A DNA stretch of 10,241 nt from a bacterium (GTDB taxonomy: Bacteria > NPL-UPA2 > JAGMAN01): contig JAGMAN010000066.1 in assembly GCA_023130215.1 (NCBI GenBank), forward strand, positions 1 through 10,241, given 5' to 3'. A program made the position numbers and the translations under genes. This document shows positions 579-9,689 of the stretch, piece by piece. Under the pieces are notes generated by a model, which saw only the letters and a list, made by a program, of their open reading frames with translations, was not told the DNA's origin and made no database searches. Within the stretch, counting starts at the first letter, position 1; the number at the start of each line of letters is the position of its first letter.

Positions 579-971
579 TCAGTAGCCTGATGAAGGGGCT
601 TTGTTCTTCTCCGCCTCATAGGCTTCCAGTACTTTCTTCTGAATATACTCTCTGGCTTGAGAGGTAATCGGGTGAGCCAGGTCACGGTGTTCGCTCTTCG
701 TCCCCTCTGGCTGATCTACAGGCCGGGGAGTGGGCTCCAATCGGTGCCCGCATTGGCTACAGAACTTGCTCCTAGTATCGTTGCCGAATCTGCATTTCGG
801 GCAGCTTTCCCGCAGCCTTTGGCTGGGCATAGCCACAAAAAGGCCTTTCCTGCCTTCGATTACCTTTACATCGCGCACCACAAACTCATGGTCAAAGGTC
901 ATGGTGGCATAGGCCTTTAACTTTCCATCTCCTTCGTTCCTTAACCGAACTCTAACTTCTGTGATTTCCAC
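579..971 (-). CDS. spoVG: SpoVG family protein with an inserted zinc ribbon
   Basis: SpoVG proteins are small nucleic-acid-binding regulators, named for a role in sporulation septation in Bacillus but widespread in non-sporulating bacteria. Residues 1-52 (MEITEVRVRL...DHEFVVRDVKVIEG...GLFVAMPSQR) and residues 94-120 (EHRDLAHPITSQAREYIQKKVLEAY) match the two halves of SpoVG closely. Between them lie about 40 extra residues with Cys57, Cys60, Cys71 and Cys74 in CPKC-x10-CSQC spacing, a typical four-cysteine zinc ribbon. The total of 130 residues compares with about 85-100 for ordinary SpoVG. The start is GTG at 969-971, with GGAGGT seven bases upstream. The gene follows ispE by 78 bp, a neighbour pair also known from Firmicutes. 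The zinc ribbon probably adds nucleic-acid or protein contacts; that is inference. A frameshift artefact is unlikely because the frame is open throughout and both halves are in register. Confidence 0.9.
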   Translation of the reverse strand: MEITEVRVRLRNEGDGKLKAYATMTFDHEFVVRDVKVIEGRKGLFVAMPSQRLRESCPKCRFGNDTRSKFCSQCGHRLEPTPRPVDQPEGTKSEHRDLAHPITSQAREYIQKKVLEAYEAEKNKAPSSGY

Positions 972-1049
972 TTAGGTTACCTCCAACAATCGAAAGTTAA
1001 AAGCAGAAAGTTTAAAATCTCTATCGCTTTCAACTTTGCTCTTTAAGTT

Positions 1050-1916
1050 CTAACTGACCACGGCCACTCCATCATTCCAGGTCTTTGCTACATAGACCTC
1101 CTCCTCTTTGACTGCCTTTCTTATTCTCTCCGCCTCTTCTCCTGAGCGGACAATACCAAAGATAGCTGAACCGCTGCCGGACATGGAGGCAGAACCTACC
1201 CCTAAAGATTTGAGCTCCTCCTTAATCATCCTAATCCGAGGGTATTTTATCACCTCCTCAAATCTGTTATAGAGAACCGAGCTCAAATCTCCCCTTTCCA
1301 GATGCTTCATGATTATTTTAATCTGACTTTCTCCTTTTGTCAAGCCTAAACTTTGGTATGCCCGGTTAGTTGACACCCTGAATTCGGGAATAACTAAGAT
1401 AAGCCAGAACGGTGGCCATCCTTTCAAGGGAGTGAGCTCATCCCCTCTCCCTTTAGCTACGGCTCTTCCTCCCTGGATGAAGAAGGGAACATCCATTCCC
1501 AGGGAGCTGGCCAACCTAATAAGTGTTTTTTTTGGTAGGTTTAAATTCCAAAGTTTATTCAATCCCACCAGGGTAGCCGCCGCATTGCTGGATCCCCCAC
1601 CCAGTCCGGCCGCAGGTGGAATATTTTTTTTTATCTTGATGGCTACGCCACGGCTTAGCTTAGTTTCCTGCAGAATAAGCTGAGCCGCCCGATAAGCTAA
1701 ATTTCCTTTTCCATGAGGCACTCCCGCCTGCCATTCATTGGCGGGCAGGCCCTCCTTCTGGCAGGAGACCTCTATTCCTTTCTCTCTTTCTCTCAGGGTA
1801 ACTTCATCGCACAGGTCTATAGCCTGAATTATCGTCTCTATTTCATGATAACCGTCTCTCCTTTTTGCCAGGACATTTAGATATAGATTTATCTTGGCCG
1901 GGGAGATAACCTTCAC
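1050..1916 (-). CDS. ispE: 4-diphosphocytidyl-2-C-methyl-D-erythritol kinase
   Basis: IspE is the cytoplasmic GHMP-family kinase that phosphorylates CDP-methylerythritol with ATP, in the MEP route to isoprenoid precursors. Numbered from the GTG at 1914-1916 (288 residues), SPAKINLYL with Lys8 opens the protein. The ATP-binding GHMP motif PPAAGLGGGSSNAAA lies at about 100-114. Asp142 in GMDVPFF is the expected catalytic base, and the C-terminal glycine motif SMSGSGSAIFG is near 245-255. The frame extends upstream to a TTG at 1923-1925, but that codon has only one base between it and AAAGGA. The GTG gives about ten bases of spacing and a canonical MKVISPAKINL-type N-terminus, so I prefer it. 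The gene contains an A8 run and an A9 run on its coding strand. It lies between hisG and spoVG in the same direction. Confidence 0.94.
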   Translation of the reverse strand: MKVISPAKINLYLNVLAKRRDGYHEIETIIQAIDLCDEVTLREREKGIEVSCQKEGLPANEWQAGVPHGKGNLAYRAAQLILQETKLSRGVAIKIKKNIPPAAGLGGGSSNAAATLVGLNKLWNLNLPKKTLIRLASSLGMDVPFFIQGGRAVAKGRGDELTPLKGWPPFWLILVIPEFRVSTNRAYQSLGLTKGESQIKIIMKHLERGDLSSVLYNRFEEVIKYPRIRMIKEELKSLGVGSASMSGSGSAIFGIVRSGEEAERIRKAVKEEEVYVAKTWNDGVAVVS

Positions 1917-1939
1917 CTCATTCAAGTCCTTTTCTTGTA

Positions 1940-3869: not shown

Positions 3870-4124
3870 TTAATAGACATCTTTTCGATCCTCAACATCG
3901 AGGATCGTTATAGATGCTTTCTTCTTGTCAATCTCATAGACGATACGGTAGGACCCAACTCGGCAGGAATACAGTCCCTCATATTCTCCTTTAAGCTTCT
4001 TTGCTTGATAGGGATTCTTTTTAATATTCCTTAGAGCTCTCTTAATGAGATTCTGTCTCTTGTGAGGAAGCTTCTTTATTTCCTTGGGTAGCCTCTTGTA
4101 GATATTAAGGCTGTACTCTTTCAT
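3870..4124 (-). CDS. RelE/ParE-superfamily toxin
   Basis: This 84-residue protein belongs to the RelE/ParE toxin superfamily. RelE members cut mRNA on the ribosome, while ParE members poison gyrase. The signature KKLKGEYEGLYSCRVGSYRIVYEID (residues 42-66) and the C-terminal VEDRKDVY are characteristic. Arg55, Arg60, Arg80 and Tyr84 fall where RelE-type RNases carry catalytic basic and aromatic residues, so the RNase type is favoured. Length is normal for the family. Its ATG overlaps the antitoxin stop codon in an ATGA junction, which indicates translational coupling and a typical toxin-antitoxin order with the antitoxin first. The specific cellular target cannot be read from the sequence. Confidence 0.9.
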   Translation of the reverse strand: MKEYSLNIYKRLPKEIKKLPHKRQNLIKRALRNIKKNPYQAKKLKGEYEGLYSCRVGSYRIVYEIDKKKASITILDVEDRKDVY

Positions 4125-4390
4125 GGAGATTCTCCAAAAGCATCCTCAAAAGTGACGACTTCTCCCTTTTTGGCTTTTGTCCTGGCTTCCTTTATCCTCC
4201 TGGCCGCTTTGGGACTAGCCATAATCTCCAGGGTCTCTAACCATCCCTCAAATTCCTCATAGCTCATCAGGATTGCTTCTGGTTTCCCTTTCTTTGTTAT
4301 GACACATCTATCATAAAGGCGAGAAACATCCCTGAGTATTGAGGTAAAGTGATCACGAACCTCAGTTAAAGGCAATGTCTTAGTAGACAT
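4121..4390 (-). CDS. Phd/YefM-family antitoxin
   Basis: This 89-residue antitoxin should bind and neutralise the toxin encoded next and repress its own promoter as a complex. The N-terminal half (TKTLPLTEVRDHFTSILRDV...VITKKGKPEAILMSYEEFEGWLETLE) is the Phd/YefM dimeric DNA-binding fold. The C-terminal segment (residues 60-89, KAARRIKEARTKAKKGEVVTFEDAF) is the usual flexible, charged toxin-binding arm. The frame is open back to a TTG at 4457-4459, but that codon lies in the predicted -35 box. ATG 4388-4390 has GGGAGG eight bases upstream and gives a family-length protein, so it is chosen. The gene overlaps the toxin start by four bases. Confidence 0.9.
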   Translation of the reverse strand: MSTKTLPLTEVRDHFTSILRDVSRLYDRCVITKKGKPEAILMSYEEFEGWLETLEIMASPKAARRIKEARTKAKKGEVVTFEDAFGESP

Positions 4391-4407
4391 ATTCTTTCCC
4401 TCCCTTC

Positions 4408-4425
4408 TGACCAGAATAGTGGTCA
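4408..4425. promoter_or_regulatory. Palindromic candidate operator of the toxin-antitoxin operon
   Basis: A perfect inverted repeat, TGACCA and TGGTCA separated by six bases, lies between the -10 box and the antitoxin SD and overlaps the predicted transcription start near 4424. Phd/YefM antitoxins repress their operons through short palindromes in this position, so this is the likely operator. The binding itself is inferred. Confidence 0.55.
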
Positions 4426-4430
4426 TTGTA

Positions 4431-4459
4431 ATTTTACCTCTTTTCTGGATAGTTGTCAA
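4431..4459 (-). promoter_or_regulatory. Sigma-A promoter of the toxin-antitoxin operon
   Basis: On the minus strand a perfect TTGACA (4454-4459) and TAAAAT (4431-4436) are separated by exactly 17 bases. A second TTGACA lies 11 bases further upstream (4465-4470), inside an A-rich GGAAAAAGTTTGACA block. That second box has no suitable -10 partner. Confidence 0.8.
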
Positions 4460-4521: not shown

Positions 4522-5415
4522 TTAGTGAAAGATGTAGCCGAGGAGTTTGTAGATGAGTTTGGCGGCCAGAAAATCAGGTGAAATGTTCCCGGGCTGAGGA
4601 GCCAGCTCCACTAAGTCGAAGCCAACTATCTTCTTTTCTCTGGCTAATTGGCGAAGAAGCTGGAGGGTCTCATACCAGTCCAGACCCCCTGGTTCCGGTG
4701 TTCCTACCGATGGCATAATCCCCGGGTCCAGAACATCTAAATCAATGGTCAAATAGACATTTGGGGAAAGCGAAGATATAACCTCCTCTATCCAATCTCT
4801 TTTTTCTTTGATTGTGTCAAATGCGGAGACCTGACCCATCCTGCCTGTGATCTGGCCTGCGTAGAAGACTTTTGGCCCTTTACCACTCTTAATGTACTCT
4901 CCCTCCTCCCGGCTTAAACTCCGAACTCCCACCTGGGTCAGGGGAACCAATTCTGCCATCCTGCGGCCAACACAAGCGTGGTTATATTTTGTGCCTTCAT
5001 ACTCATCCCGCAGGTCTGCATGGGCATCCAGTTGAAGAACTGATAGGTCAGCAAACTTATCCCGCAGAGCCTTGACCATTCCCAGGCTGAGAGAATGTTC
5101 ACCCCCTAACATAACGATAAACTTTTCATCTCTTACCAACGGGGAAGCTTTAAGATAGACTTTCTCTACCATACCCTCGGCAGATAGATCTCTTCCCTCT
5201 ACTGTATCCAAGGTGTGAATCCCGATTTTATAGGTATCCTGGCGGAGCTCCTCATCGTAGAGTTCTAATTGCTGGGAAGCTTTTAGGATAGCCTGTGGGC
5301 CTTGACTGGCTCCCTTCCCGTAGGTCACCGTCCCTTCATAAGCAATGGGGAGGATAATTGCTTTGGAGCTCTCGTAATTGGAAAATTCTCCTTCTAAGTC
5401 AGCGAAATTAATCAT
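4522..5415 (-). CDS. speB: Agmatinase (ureohydrolase family)
   Basis: Agmatinase hydrolyses agmatine to putrescine and urea in the cytoplasm. The 297-residue protein has the full binuclear manganese site of the arginase/agmatinase family: His107 in GGEHSLS, Asp130, His132 and Asp134 in LDAHADLRD, and Asp225 and Asp227 in DLDVLDP. PSVGTPEPGGL (235-245) and Glu271-Leu-Ala-Pro near the C-terminus are also typical. Formiminoglutamase or arginase would share these motifs. The adjacent arginine decarboxylase gene, which makes agmatine, argues for agmatinase. The ATG is 8 bp downstream of that gene's stop codon and has only a weak SD, so translation is probably coupled. The toxin-antitoxin operon follows downstream. 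Confidence 0.93.
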   Translation of the reverse strand: MINFADLEGEFSNYESSKAIILPIAYEGTVTYGKGASQGPQAILKASQQLELYDEELRQDTYKIGIHTLDTVEGRDLSAEGMVEKVYLKASPLVRDEKFIVMLGGEHSLSLGMVKALRDKFADLSVLQLDAHADLRDEYEGTKYNHACVGRRMAELVPLTQVGVRSLSREEGEYIKSGKGPKVFYAGQITGRMGQVSAFDTIKEKRDWIEEVISSLSPNVYLTIDLDVLDPGIMPSVGTPEPGGLDWYETLQLLRQLAREKKIVGFDLVELAPQPGNISPDFLAAKLIYKLLGYIFH

Positions 5416-5423
5416 ACGAAGTG

Positions 5424-5987
5424 TTACAAGAGTGATCCTTGATGGACGGGGAGGAAGATGGCGGCAGCGATTACTGTTGTCCAGAGACCCTTCCTATCTC
5501 CGATGGCAGATTGGGTGATGTTACTGGTTCGGACGATCTGATTGTGCATCTTATAGATCTCCTTGCGTTCGTCCCAGGCATCATCAATGTTAAATTCTAT
5601 TCCTAAAGTGGAAGCCAGCATGGTGGCCGCTAAATCTTCGGCGTAATCGCCGGCCATGCTCTCCGTCTGACCGAAGGAATGATGCTCGCTGAGATAGCCA
5701 TATCTTTCCTTCCCTGTGGGAACAGCAATGCCAATGGAAGCGGCCAGTAAGCGGTTTGGTTCGTTGGTGCTATTCTCACTGAAGACAGTAAAGATAATCT
5801 GACCCGGCGGCAACTGCTCTAAGGCCCTCTTCTTTGATATTATCTTACACCCAGGGGGGAGAATGCTGGAAACTCTAACCAGGTTATACTTGGCGATATC
5901 AGCCCGGCGAAGAGCCATCTCAAAGGACTGTAGTTTTTCCTTGTGCCTTCCTACTCCCTTGGTAAGGAAAATGCGCTCGGGAATCAT
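5424..5987 (-). CDS. Pyruvoyl-dependent arginine decarboxylase
   Basis: The enzyme decarboxylates arginine to agmatine using a pyruvoyl group made by self-cleavage rather than PLP. The 187-residue proenzyme resembles the archaeal PvlArgDC in length and motif order. [12 protein letters not shown] holds the processing site, with expected cleavage between Ser40 and Ser41, so that Ser41 becomes the pyruvoyl residue of the alpha chain. Downstream, [25 protein letters not shown] and [13 protein letters not shown] are family blocks, as is the C-terminal region with many small residues. The ATG at 5985-5987 is preceded by TGA-G8-AG, which serves as the SD. The next gene is agmatinase, giving a two-step route to putrescine. 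This enzyme type is common in archaea and patchy in bacteria, so horizontal acquisition is possible but not shown here. Confidence 0.93.
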
Positions 5988-8215: not shown

Positions 8216-8620
8216 CTATCTGAGTTTCGTTAAGACTCTGATCAGGTGGCTGATCTTACGGTGTTCTATGTCTTCAAATCTTCGCTTAAGTGCCCCTCTT
8301 TTCCTCTCGCTGAAGGAGTCATTTCCGATAACATCATCAAATAAGTCGCTAAGTTCCCAGAAGAAGCTGTGCAATAGCTCATGCAGGCAGAGCCTCTTGA
8401 TATTCCCCATCCGCATCCTGGCAAAGCGAACTTTATTCAGTTTGAGATAAATATTCTTCCTCTCATTATCTATCTGGATGACGGCGTAGCAGTCATTCAT
8501 ATCCTCGTCTTCCCGCTGGGTTTTGAAGCGGGAAAGAAGCCTGTAATGGGATAAAGCCAGCAGGTTCTTATAATACCTGATGATCTTCCTGATTTCCTTT
8601 TTCTTTTTGTCCCTGATCAT
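8216..8620 (-). CDS. Small HExxH putative zinc metallopeptidase-like protein
   Basis: The family is only partly recognised. Residues 80-84 are HELLH, an HExxH zinc-binding motif, in the hydrophobic context RLCLHELLHSFFWEL. About 35 residues later comes RFEDIEHRKISHLIRVL, where Glu116 or Glu119 could be the third zinc ligand. The middle part (CYAVIQIDNERKNIYLKLNKV) looks like two beta strands before the active-site helix. The layout resembles short phage- and plasmid-associated HExxH proteins of about 130 residues. Peptidase activity is inferred and the substrate unknown. ATG 8618-8620 has AAGGAG eight bases upstream, and an in-frame TAA lies 15 bases upstream, so the start is well fixed. It overlaps the preceding small gene by 53 bp. 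No signal peptide is visible, so it is probably cytoplasmic. Confidence 0.72.
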   Translation of the reverse strand: MIRDKKKKEIRKIIRYYKNLLALSHYRLLSRFKTQREDEDMNDCYAVIQIDNERKNIYLKLNKVRFARMRMGNIKRLCLHELLHSFFWELSDLFDDVIGNDSFSERKRGALKRRFEDIEHRKISHLIRVLTKLR

Positions 8621-8810: not shown

Positions 8811-9689
8811 TTATGGCAGAAGCTCATTTAGCCTCTGGGTGGCTACACAGATCACCTTGTCTGCTCCACCGTAGTGGACAAAAAGTCTTTCATCCTTCAC
8901 GAAGGCTCCACAGGTGAAGACGACATTGGGGACATCCCCTTTTCGCTCATATTCCTTATCCGGGACAAGTATCGGTTCCTTTGAGCGATAGATTATCTCC
9001 TCGGGATTCTCAAGGGATATTAATGCCAGTCCCAGCCGGTAGATCTTCGCCTCATCCATGGCATGGTAGATAAAGAGCCAACCTCTTGGAGTCTTTATGG
9101 GAGGGGCTCCTGCTCCCACTTTCACCTTCTCCCAGCCAGTGCCTCTGGGCGTGATGACAATATTGGAGTTTTCCCAGTGGGCGAGGTCATCAGAGTAGGC
9201 AACCCAGACGTGAGGAGGTATCCTGTGGTATATAACCCATTTACCTTTTATCTTTTCGGGAAAGAGAGCCACATCCTTGTTGTTAACTCTGGGAAATGGA
9301 TAATTTCTCTTTCCCCATTCCCATTTCTTGGCTAAGAAATCAACTACTTTAATAGCAACCTGTCCGATCTGAGCGGCGTGGCTACTATAAGCAGTATAGA
9401 ACATATAATATTCTTCTCCCACTCTGGTTATCCTTGGATCTTCACAGCCACTTTCTTCAAACTCTCCTTCAGGGCAGAATATCGGTTCCGGCAACCGCCC
9501 GCTTATCTTGAAACCATCTGGAGAGGAAGCATATCCTAAACGTGAGATATTGTCTTCTCCCATAGCTCGATAAACGATATGGACTTTGCCTCCGTCATAA
9601 AAGGAGGCGCAGTTGAAGACGCACCTGGATTCCCAGGAGTGCTCTGGAATTGGCTTAAGGATTGGATTTCCTTCAAATTTCTCAAGCAC
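8811..9689 (-). CDS. GH130 family glycoside phosphorylase/hydrolase
   Basis: GH130 enzymes are five-bladed beta-propeller proteins, mostly phosphorylases that cleave beta-mannosides with inorganic phosphate to give mannose 1-phosphate; some are hydrolases. The 292-residue protein shows the family pattern. NCASFYDGGKVHIVYRA lies at 26-42 and ISRLGYASSPDGF at 48-60. GCEDPRI holds Asp84, the expected general acid. NNKDVALFPEKIKGKW lies at 136-151, and GAGAPPIKTPRGWLFIYHA ends with His209. Lys138 and His209 fall in blocks where phosphorylases hold phosphate, which favours phosphorolysis, but the sub-type and sugar specificity cannot be fixed. There is no signal peptide, so it is cytoplasmic. The start is GTG 9687-9689, with GAGGAGG ten bases upstream. 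It overlaps the glycosyltransferase gene by 8 bp, so the two are translationally coupled. Confidence 0.9.
   Translation of the reverse strand: MLEKFEGNPILKPIPEHSWESRCVFNCASFYDGGKVHIVYRAMGEDNISRLGYASSPDGFKISGRLPEPIFCPEGEFEESGCEDPRITRVGEEYYMFYTAYSSHAAQIGQVAIKVVDFLAKKWEWGKRNYPFPRVNNKDVALFPEKIKGKWVIYHRIPPHVWVAYSDDLAHWENSNIVITPRGTGWEKVKVGAGAPPIKTPRGWLFIYHAMDEAKIYRLGLALISLENPEEIIYRSKEPILVPDKEYERKGDVPNVVFTCGAFVKDERLFVHYGGADKVICVATQRLNELLP

Follow-up and report, generated by a model that had tools for sequence, protein, structure and literature searches.

The stretch of DNA analysed here (the window: 10,241 nucleotides, contig JAGMAN010000066.1 of assembly GCA_023130215.1, from a bacterium of the NPL-UPA2 lineage) carries an open reading frame that codes for a SpoVG with an intact fold and an inserted C4 zinc-ribbon-type module (Table 1). 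The genome groups with L002, a MAG of the same NPL-UPA2 genus; the host is not a planctomycete. The protein matches the Pfam SpoVG family (PF04026) at 98.8 bits, against a cut-off of 29.6, in one piece that spans the insert (residues 1-119; profile positions 1-81 of 82). The match to the NCBIfam equivalog of the septation regulator SpoVG (PRK13259) is broken into two stretches by the insert and, at 101.9 bits, lies below the cut-off of 108. A preliminary description of this DNA, made from its letters, had held that both halves of the SpoVG domain are well kept, and this is borne out by the Pfam match across the insert and by the core of the AF2 model.

Table 1. Features of the spoVG locus (positions of the window).
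Feature	Position	Strand	Remarks or basis
spoVG, ribbon-bearing form	579..971	-	130 aa, GTG start, open frame
Ribosome-binding site GGAGG	980..984	-	8 nt 5' of the spoVG GTG; read from the sequence
N-terminal half of the SpoVG fold, residues 1-52, with the MPSQR strand at its end	816..971	-	Pfam, AF2, fold match
Insert, residues 53-93 (41 aa)	693..815	-	against 4 aa in plain SpoVG
C4 zinc knuckle pair C57-C74, C-x2-C-x3-N-x6-C-x2-C	750..803	-	DZR/Zn_Ribbon_1 matches, cysteine conservation
Variable linker, probably disordered, residues 80-93	693..734	-	low pLDDT, high pN/pS
C-terminal half of the SpoVG fold, residues 94-130 (EHRDLAHPI strand, helix 104-124)	582..692	-	Pfam, AF2, fold match
Residues 104-109 (SQAREY)	645..662	-	AHPI-motif alignment to S. 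aureus S66-E71
ispE, upstream neighbour, marks the ancestral spoVG locus	1050..1925	-	GHMP kinase N and C domains

Other genes of the window, on the same strand, include a pair of ParE-type toxin and Phd/YefM antitoxin recognised by Pfam (3870-4459); an arginase-family (agmatinase-like) protein next to a pyruvoyl-dependent arginine decarboxylase (4522-5987), a compact route from arginine to putrescine; a 134-aa ORF (8216-8620) with a HELLH motif, a possible zinc metalloprotease without a match in the Pfam scan; and a protein of the GH130 beta-1,4-mannooligosaccharide phosphorylase family (8811-9689).

Between MPSQR (48-52) and EHRD (94-97) the window protein has 41 residues, whereas all the plain SpoVGs measured in Bacillota (20), Desulfobacterota (17) and viral sequences (4) have exactly 4 at this site, which makes a net insertion of 37 aa. 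The preliminary description, which spoke of about 40 residues with CPKC-x10-CSQC where ordinary SpoVG has only a short turn, was thus correct on both sides of the comparison; the four cysteines are C57, C60, C71 and C74 (C-x2-C-x10-C-x2-C). The general layout of the insert is a spacer of four residues, the motif C-x2-C-x3-N-x6-C-x2-C-[GA], a hydrophobic residue at the fourth position behind the final cysteine, and a linker of variable length. The cysteines, their spacing and the four-residue spacer are invariant in 65 of the 65 distinct inserts collected from NPL-UPA2, Omnitrophota and viral contigs; the asparagine of C-x3-N is kept in 57 of them, a lysine or arginine stands two before the third cysteine in 59 and a tyrosine or phenylalanine directly before it in 63, and the mean net charge of the ribbon is +2.6. 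With the cysteines constant in the whole set and the long form present in all seven main genes of NPL-UPA2, the insert is far beyond chance.

The same division into a constant and a variable part appears at the codon level. At the distance of L003, pN/pS is 0.08-0.12 in the ribbon and 0.05-0.13 in the SpoVG core, against 0.53-0.65 in the linker; for the pair of window gene and L003 the values are 0.08, 0.07-0.12 and 0.65. The ribbon is thus under purifying selection much as the core is, whereas the linker is far less constrained. When the window, L001 and L002, the closest trio, are compared with one another, the ribbon value is 0.45-0.54, a noisier figure as it comes from few changes.

The insert of the window has the two CxxC knuckles with zinc-ribbon spacing, and it matches the profiles DZR (E=3.9e-5) and Zn_Ribbon_1 (E=1.3e-4), both slightly under their curated cut-offs (PF13240/PF12773: 24.2 against 27.3 and 22.0 against 25.0 bits). 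Among the 21 relatives scanned, DZR is matched by all, Zn_Ribbon_1 by 20 and the RanBP2 finger by six, and the best of them reach E values down to 2.9e-7. The four cysteines probably bind one structural Zn(II).

Structure prediction, one of the checks proposed in the preliminary description, gives a SpoVG core with a ribbon that resembles a C4 finger. In the AF2 model of the window protein (a monomer, computed from a 20-sequence alignment), the block means of pLDDT are 77-94 in the core, 72-83 in the ribbon and about 51-53 in the linker. The core superposes on the SpoVG crystal structures 2ia9, 2i9x and 2i9z with Z scores of 12.4-13.5 (the highest for 2ia9_F, with 86 residues aligned), and residues 49-80 fit RanBP2/NZF C4 fingers (rmsd 1.4 Å over 31 residues with 2gqe and 1.6 Å over 30 with 1nj3). 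A second model, of the protein from viral contig L144, has the same arrangement, with a ribbon block mean of 78-93. The individual NZF matches are weak (Z < 4, for a tiny module), and some of the fingers matched bind ubiquitin or Ran, so that function cannot be read from the fold alone.

How widespread is this architecture? We surveyed nine genomes of NPL-UPA2, 193 of Omnitrophota, 33 of Desulfobacterota with matches over the cut-off and 86 of Bacillota, together with viral contigs and phage and plasmid collections. The homologue search, likewise suggested in the preliminary description, recovered the insert in the main gene of all seven NPL-UPA2 genomes that have a SpoVG (the other two are 58 and 71% complete). 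A SpoVG-family match is present in 160 Omnitrophota genomes, and in 133 of them it is the long form, of 339-393 nt. In eight Omnitrophota the main gene is plain or almost so, and the remainder of the 160 have a weaker match only; the one of these that was read by coordinates (G177) is a short paralogue. The long form was not seen among the over-cut-off matches of the 33 Desulfobacterota or in the 86 Bacillota (longest match 249 nt). A phage or plasmid origin was considered and set aside, as tblastn of the phage and plasmid collections returned matches of plain length only. By this sample, SpoVG normally takes the zinc-ribbon form in Omnitrophota and NPL-UPA2, two little-studied phyla. An assembly error, which the preliminary description had named as something that might explain the frame, is ruled out by the independent MAGs with the same architecture; with one open frame and a single ribosome-binding site besides, a frame artefact or a gene fusion in one MAG is just as implausible, and we found no support for the assembly-error reading of this gene.

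A scan of viral contigs (IMG/VR) gave four distinct ribbon forms (L144, L145, L146/L147 and L148), and the inserts of L144-L146 follow CxxC-x10-CxxC with a net length of +36 aa. TerL was searched for on these contigs called viral (L144-L148) and was not found; on one of them spoVG adjoins a LexA-like ORF. The proteins L144-L146 look planctomycete-like. L146 has ADWLEE-type proteins reminiscent of Gemmataceae.

Among the loci that extend far enough to judge, most have ispE as the immediate upstream neighbour of spoVG. This order is common to the ribbon-bearing Omnitrophota and NPL-UPA2 and to the plain Omnitrophota and Desulfobacterota, often with glmU or prs downstream. The synteny rules out that the ribbon SpoVG is a separate paralogue, and it means that the ribbon was gained in, or lost from, SpoVG in place. 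Many Omnitrophota do have a second SpoVG-like gene (L104-L112, L032, L033, and also L025, from G008), which is short and diverged (about 94 aa), has a GKDGKWYDT-like turn and no insert, and is not linked to ispE in the loci seen.

Since a SpoVG alignment is too short to settle the deep branches of a tree, the neighbouring IspE was used instead. The IspE tree gathers the eight Omnitrophota that have no ribbon in a single clade (SH-aLRT 99), nested among ribbon-bearing ones (93), and the phylogenetic mapping suggested in the preliminary description thus points to a single clade of secondary loss. In L046, the first branch of this clade, the insert is replaced by a cysteine-free stretch of 15 aa, VEKRGDGELGDFGRV, and L046 is the sole plain SpoVG measured without the four-residue turn; the other ribbonless members have the ordinary turn of 4 aa. 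The simplest reading is that the ribbon was lost once in Omnitrophota, in two steps.

The place of the insert can be related to what is known of binding by SpoVG. The S. aureus protein requires K50 and R51 to bind DNA, and its sequence preference is set by helix residues S66-E71 (PMC3688583); the Listeria protein binds RNA, and ssDNA weakly (PMC4959528). Residues Q51-R52 of the window protein align with K50-R51 and S104-Y109 with S66-E71. The insert therefore falls between the basic doublet and the specificity helix; it begins right behind the doublet, and the ribbon is attached 4-5 residues past it. The module thus adjoins the known DNA-binding residues, by alignment to the S. aureus protein (PMC3688583), and it is conserved in the lineage; the change of target, oligomer or metal/redox response that the preliminary description had thought an inserted metal-binding module could bring is hypothetical. 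The doublet itself (K/R-K/R after MPS, which the S. aureus and Borrelia proteins need to bind DNA) is RK, RR or KK in the relatives and QR in the window. A glutamine at its first position occurs in one of 74 ribbon SpoVGs, that of the window, where its codon (CAA, 819-821) is one base apart from the arginine codon CGA of the closest relatives. With Q51 in place of a basic residue, it is harder to argue for this particular genome that the protein binds DNA as plain SpoVG does.

The gene is the ispE-spoVG ortholog in its lineage-wide form, and we think that the C4 ribbon in the loop between MPS-x-[KR] and H-x-D-x-AHPI may serve as an auxiliary nucleic-acid contact, a reading of sequence and models to which we would give a probability of roughly 0.5. 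For a ribbon that is basic, probably zinc-held and set beside the doublet, an added contact of this kind is the most likely role. The ribbon, a RanBP2/DZR-like zinc knuckle pair, would sit (this part being less sure) on the edge of the groove that takes up nucleic acid and add a second contact, probably to RNA or ssDNA, which could raise the affinity of SpoVG or alter its sequence preference; the linker might act as a hinge, and a dimeric SpoVG would carry two fingers per dimer. Against this reading stand the Q51 of this genome, the weak finger matches, the missing tryptophan of RanBP2 fingers, the monomeric state of the model and the clade of eight Omnitrophota that manages without the ribbon. 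RNA-binding residues of the ZRANB2 kind (PMC6384913) are not claimed here, as the relevant positions seem to be only partly common to the ribbon.

The main rival is that the ribbon is a protein-protein module that would dock SpoVG on a partner such as a polymerase, the ribosome, an RNase or another SpoVG. Partner binding is common among the zinc ribbons of transcription proteins, and the nearest solved folds include the ubiquitin-binding NZF and Ran-binding RanBP2 fingers; we nevertheless regard docking as doubtful, as the conserved module is basic and the insert begins beside the doublet that binds nucleic acid (PMC3688583). Four cysteines in a probably solvent-exposed module could also be taken for a redox or zinc switch that toggles binding by SpoVG. 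The invariant C4 spacing, the structural asparagine and the zinc-ribbon profile, however, fit a structural zinc site, the sequence gives no hint of a resolving cysteine, and most of the organisms with a ribbon SpoVG are probably anaerobes, so that a switch seems quite improbable.

It is about as unlikely, in our opinion, that the ribbon is a neutral inherited insertion, folded but inert, in other words a lineage marker. The clean loss in one Omnitrophota clade would agree with such an idea, as does the fact that its sole use to date has been as a taxonomic signature (PMC3444138), but it is hard to reconcile with a pN/pS of about 0.1 at the distance of L003, core-like in the ribbon and not in the linker, or with all four cysteines being kept in 65 of 65 inserts over two phyla and viral contigs. 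Going further than the auxiliary contact that we favour, we would suggest only tentatively, as a possibility somewhat on the unlikely side, that the SpoVG of Omnitrophota, NPL-UPA2 and Planctomycetes might be a two-part zinc-finger RNA-binding regulator, in which the finger would set the targets and which would be ancestral in these groups and lost once in Omnitrophota.

The insert is not entirely new. The preliminary description did not know this architecture as described, and on this it was half right: Gupta et al. reported in 2012 a SpoVG insert of 32-36 aa as a conserved signature indel of all sequenced Planctomycetes, stated to be absent outside this phylum, in a text where cysteine and zinc go unmentioned (PMC3444138). 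The net 37 aa of the window protein agree with this indel in size and, presumably, in position. With the long form in NPL-UPA2 and Omnitrophota, the claim of restriction to Planctomycetes is wrong, and a published phylum marker has to be corrected. The planctomycete insert is presumably the same zinc ribbon, to judge from its length (36 aa, the net +36 of L144-L146) and from planctomycete sequences of this kind. The wider distribution either supports a shared ancestry of these phyla or points to transfer. No paper linking SpoVG to a zinc ribbon was found in the literature searched, and within it the zinc-ribbon nature of the insert, its invariant cysteines, its presence in NPL-UPA2 and most Omnitrophota and its stepwise loss appear to be new. 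The architecture is real, widespread and partly new: a known family has here a variant that is conserved and well formed. SpoVG is a small regulator of wide occurrence, and little is known of its targets except in Firmicutes and Borrelia; a finger that is kept, or lost stepwise, at one and the same locus amounts to a natural experiment on an inserted module in a nucleic-acid-binding protein.

Compared with known systems, the window protein shares its fold, its motifs and its ispE-linked locus with the SpoVG family (PF04026; 2IA9 of B. subtilis, 2I9X/2I9Z of S. epidermidis), and it differs from ordinary SpoVG in that the MPS and AHPI strands are joined by 41 residues rather than 4, with a C4 zinc ribbon among them. 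The indel of Planctomycetes is an insert of the same size, published as exclusive to that phylum and found here in NPL-UPA2 and Omnitrophota (PMC3444138). With the zinc-ribbon/DZR domains (PF13240, PF12773) and the RanBP2/NZF C4 fingers (PF00641) the insert has the spacing C-x2-C-x3-N-x6-C-x2-C in common; it lacks the tryptophan of the RanBP2 fingers (no W at C-2) and, unlike all of these, it sits inside another domain. Finally, the RRM-zinc finger modules of RBM5 and RBM10 also combine a beta-sheet RNA binder with a C4 finger. This likeness is one of working principle and not of homology, as those proteins are eukaryotic and carry the two parts as tandem domains rather than one inserted in the other.
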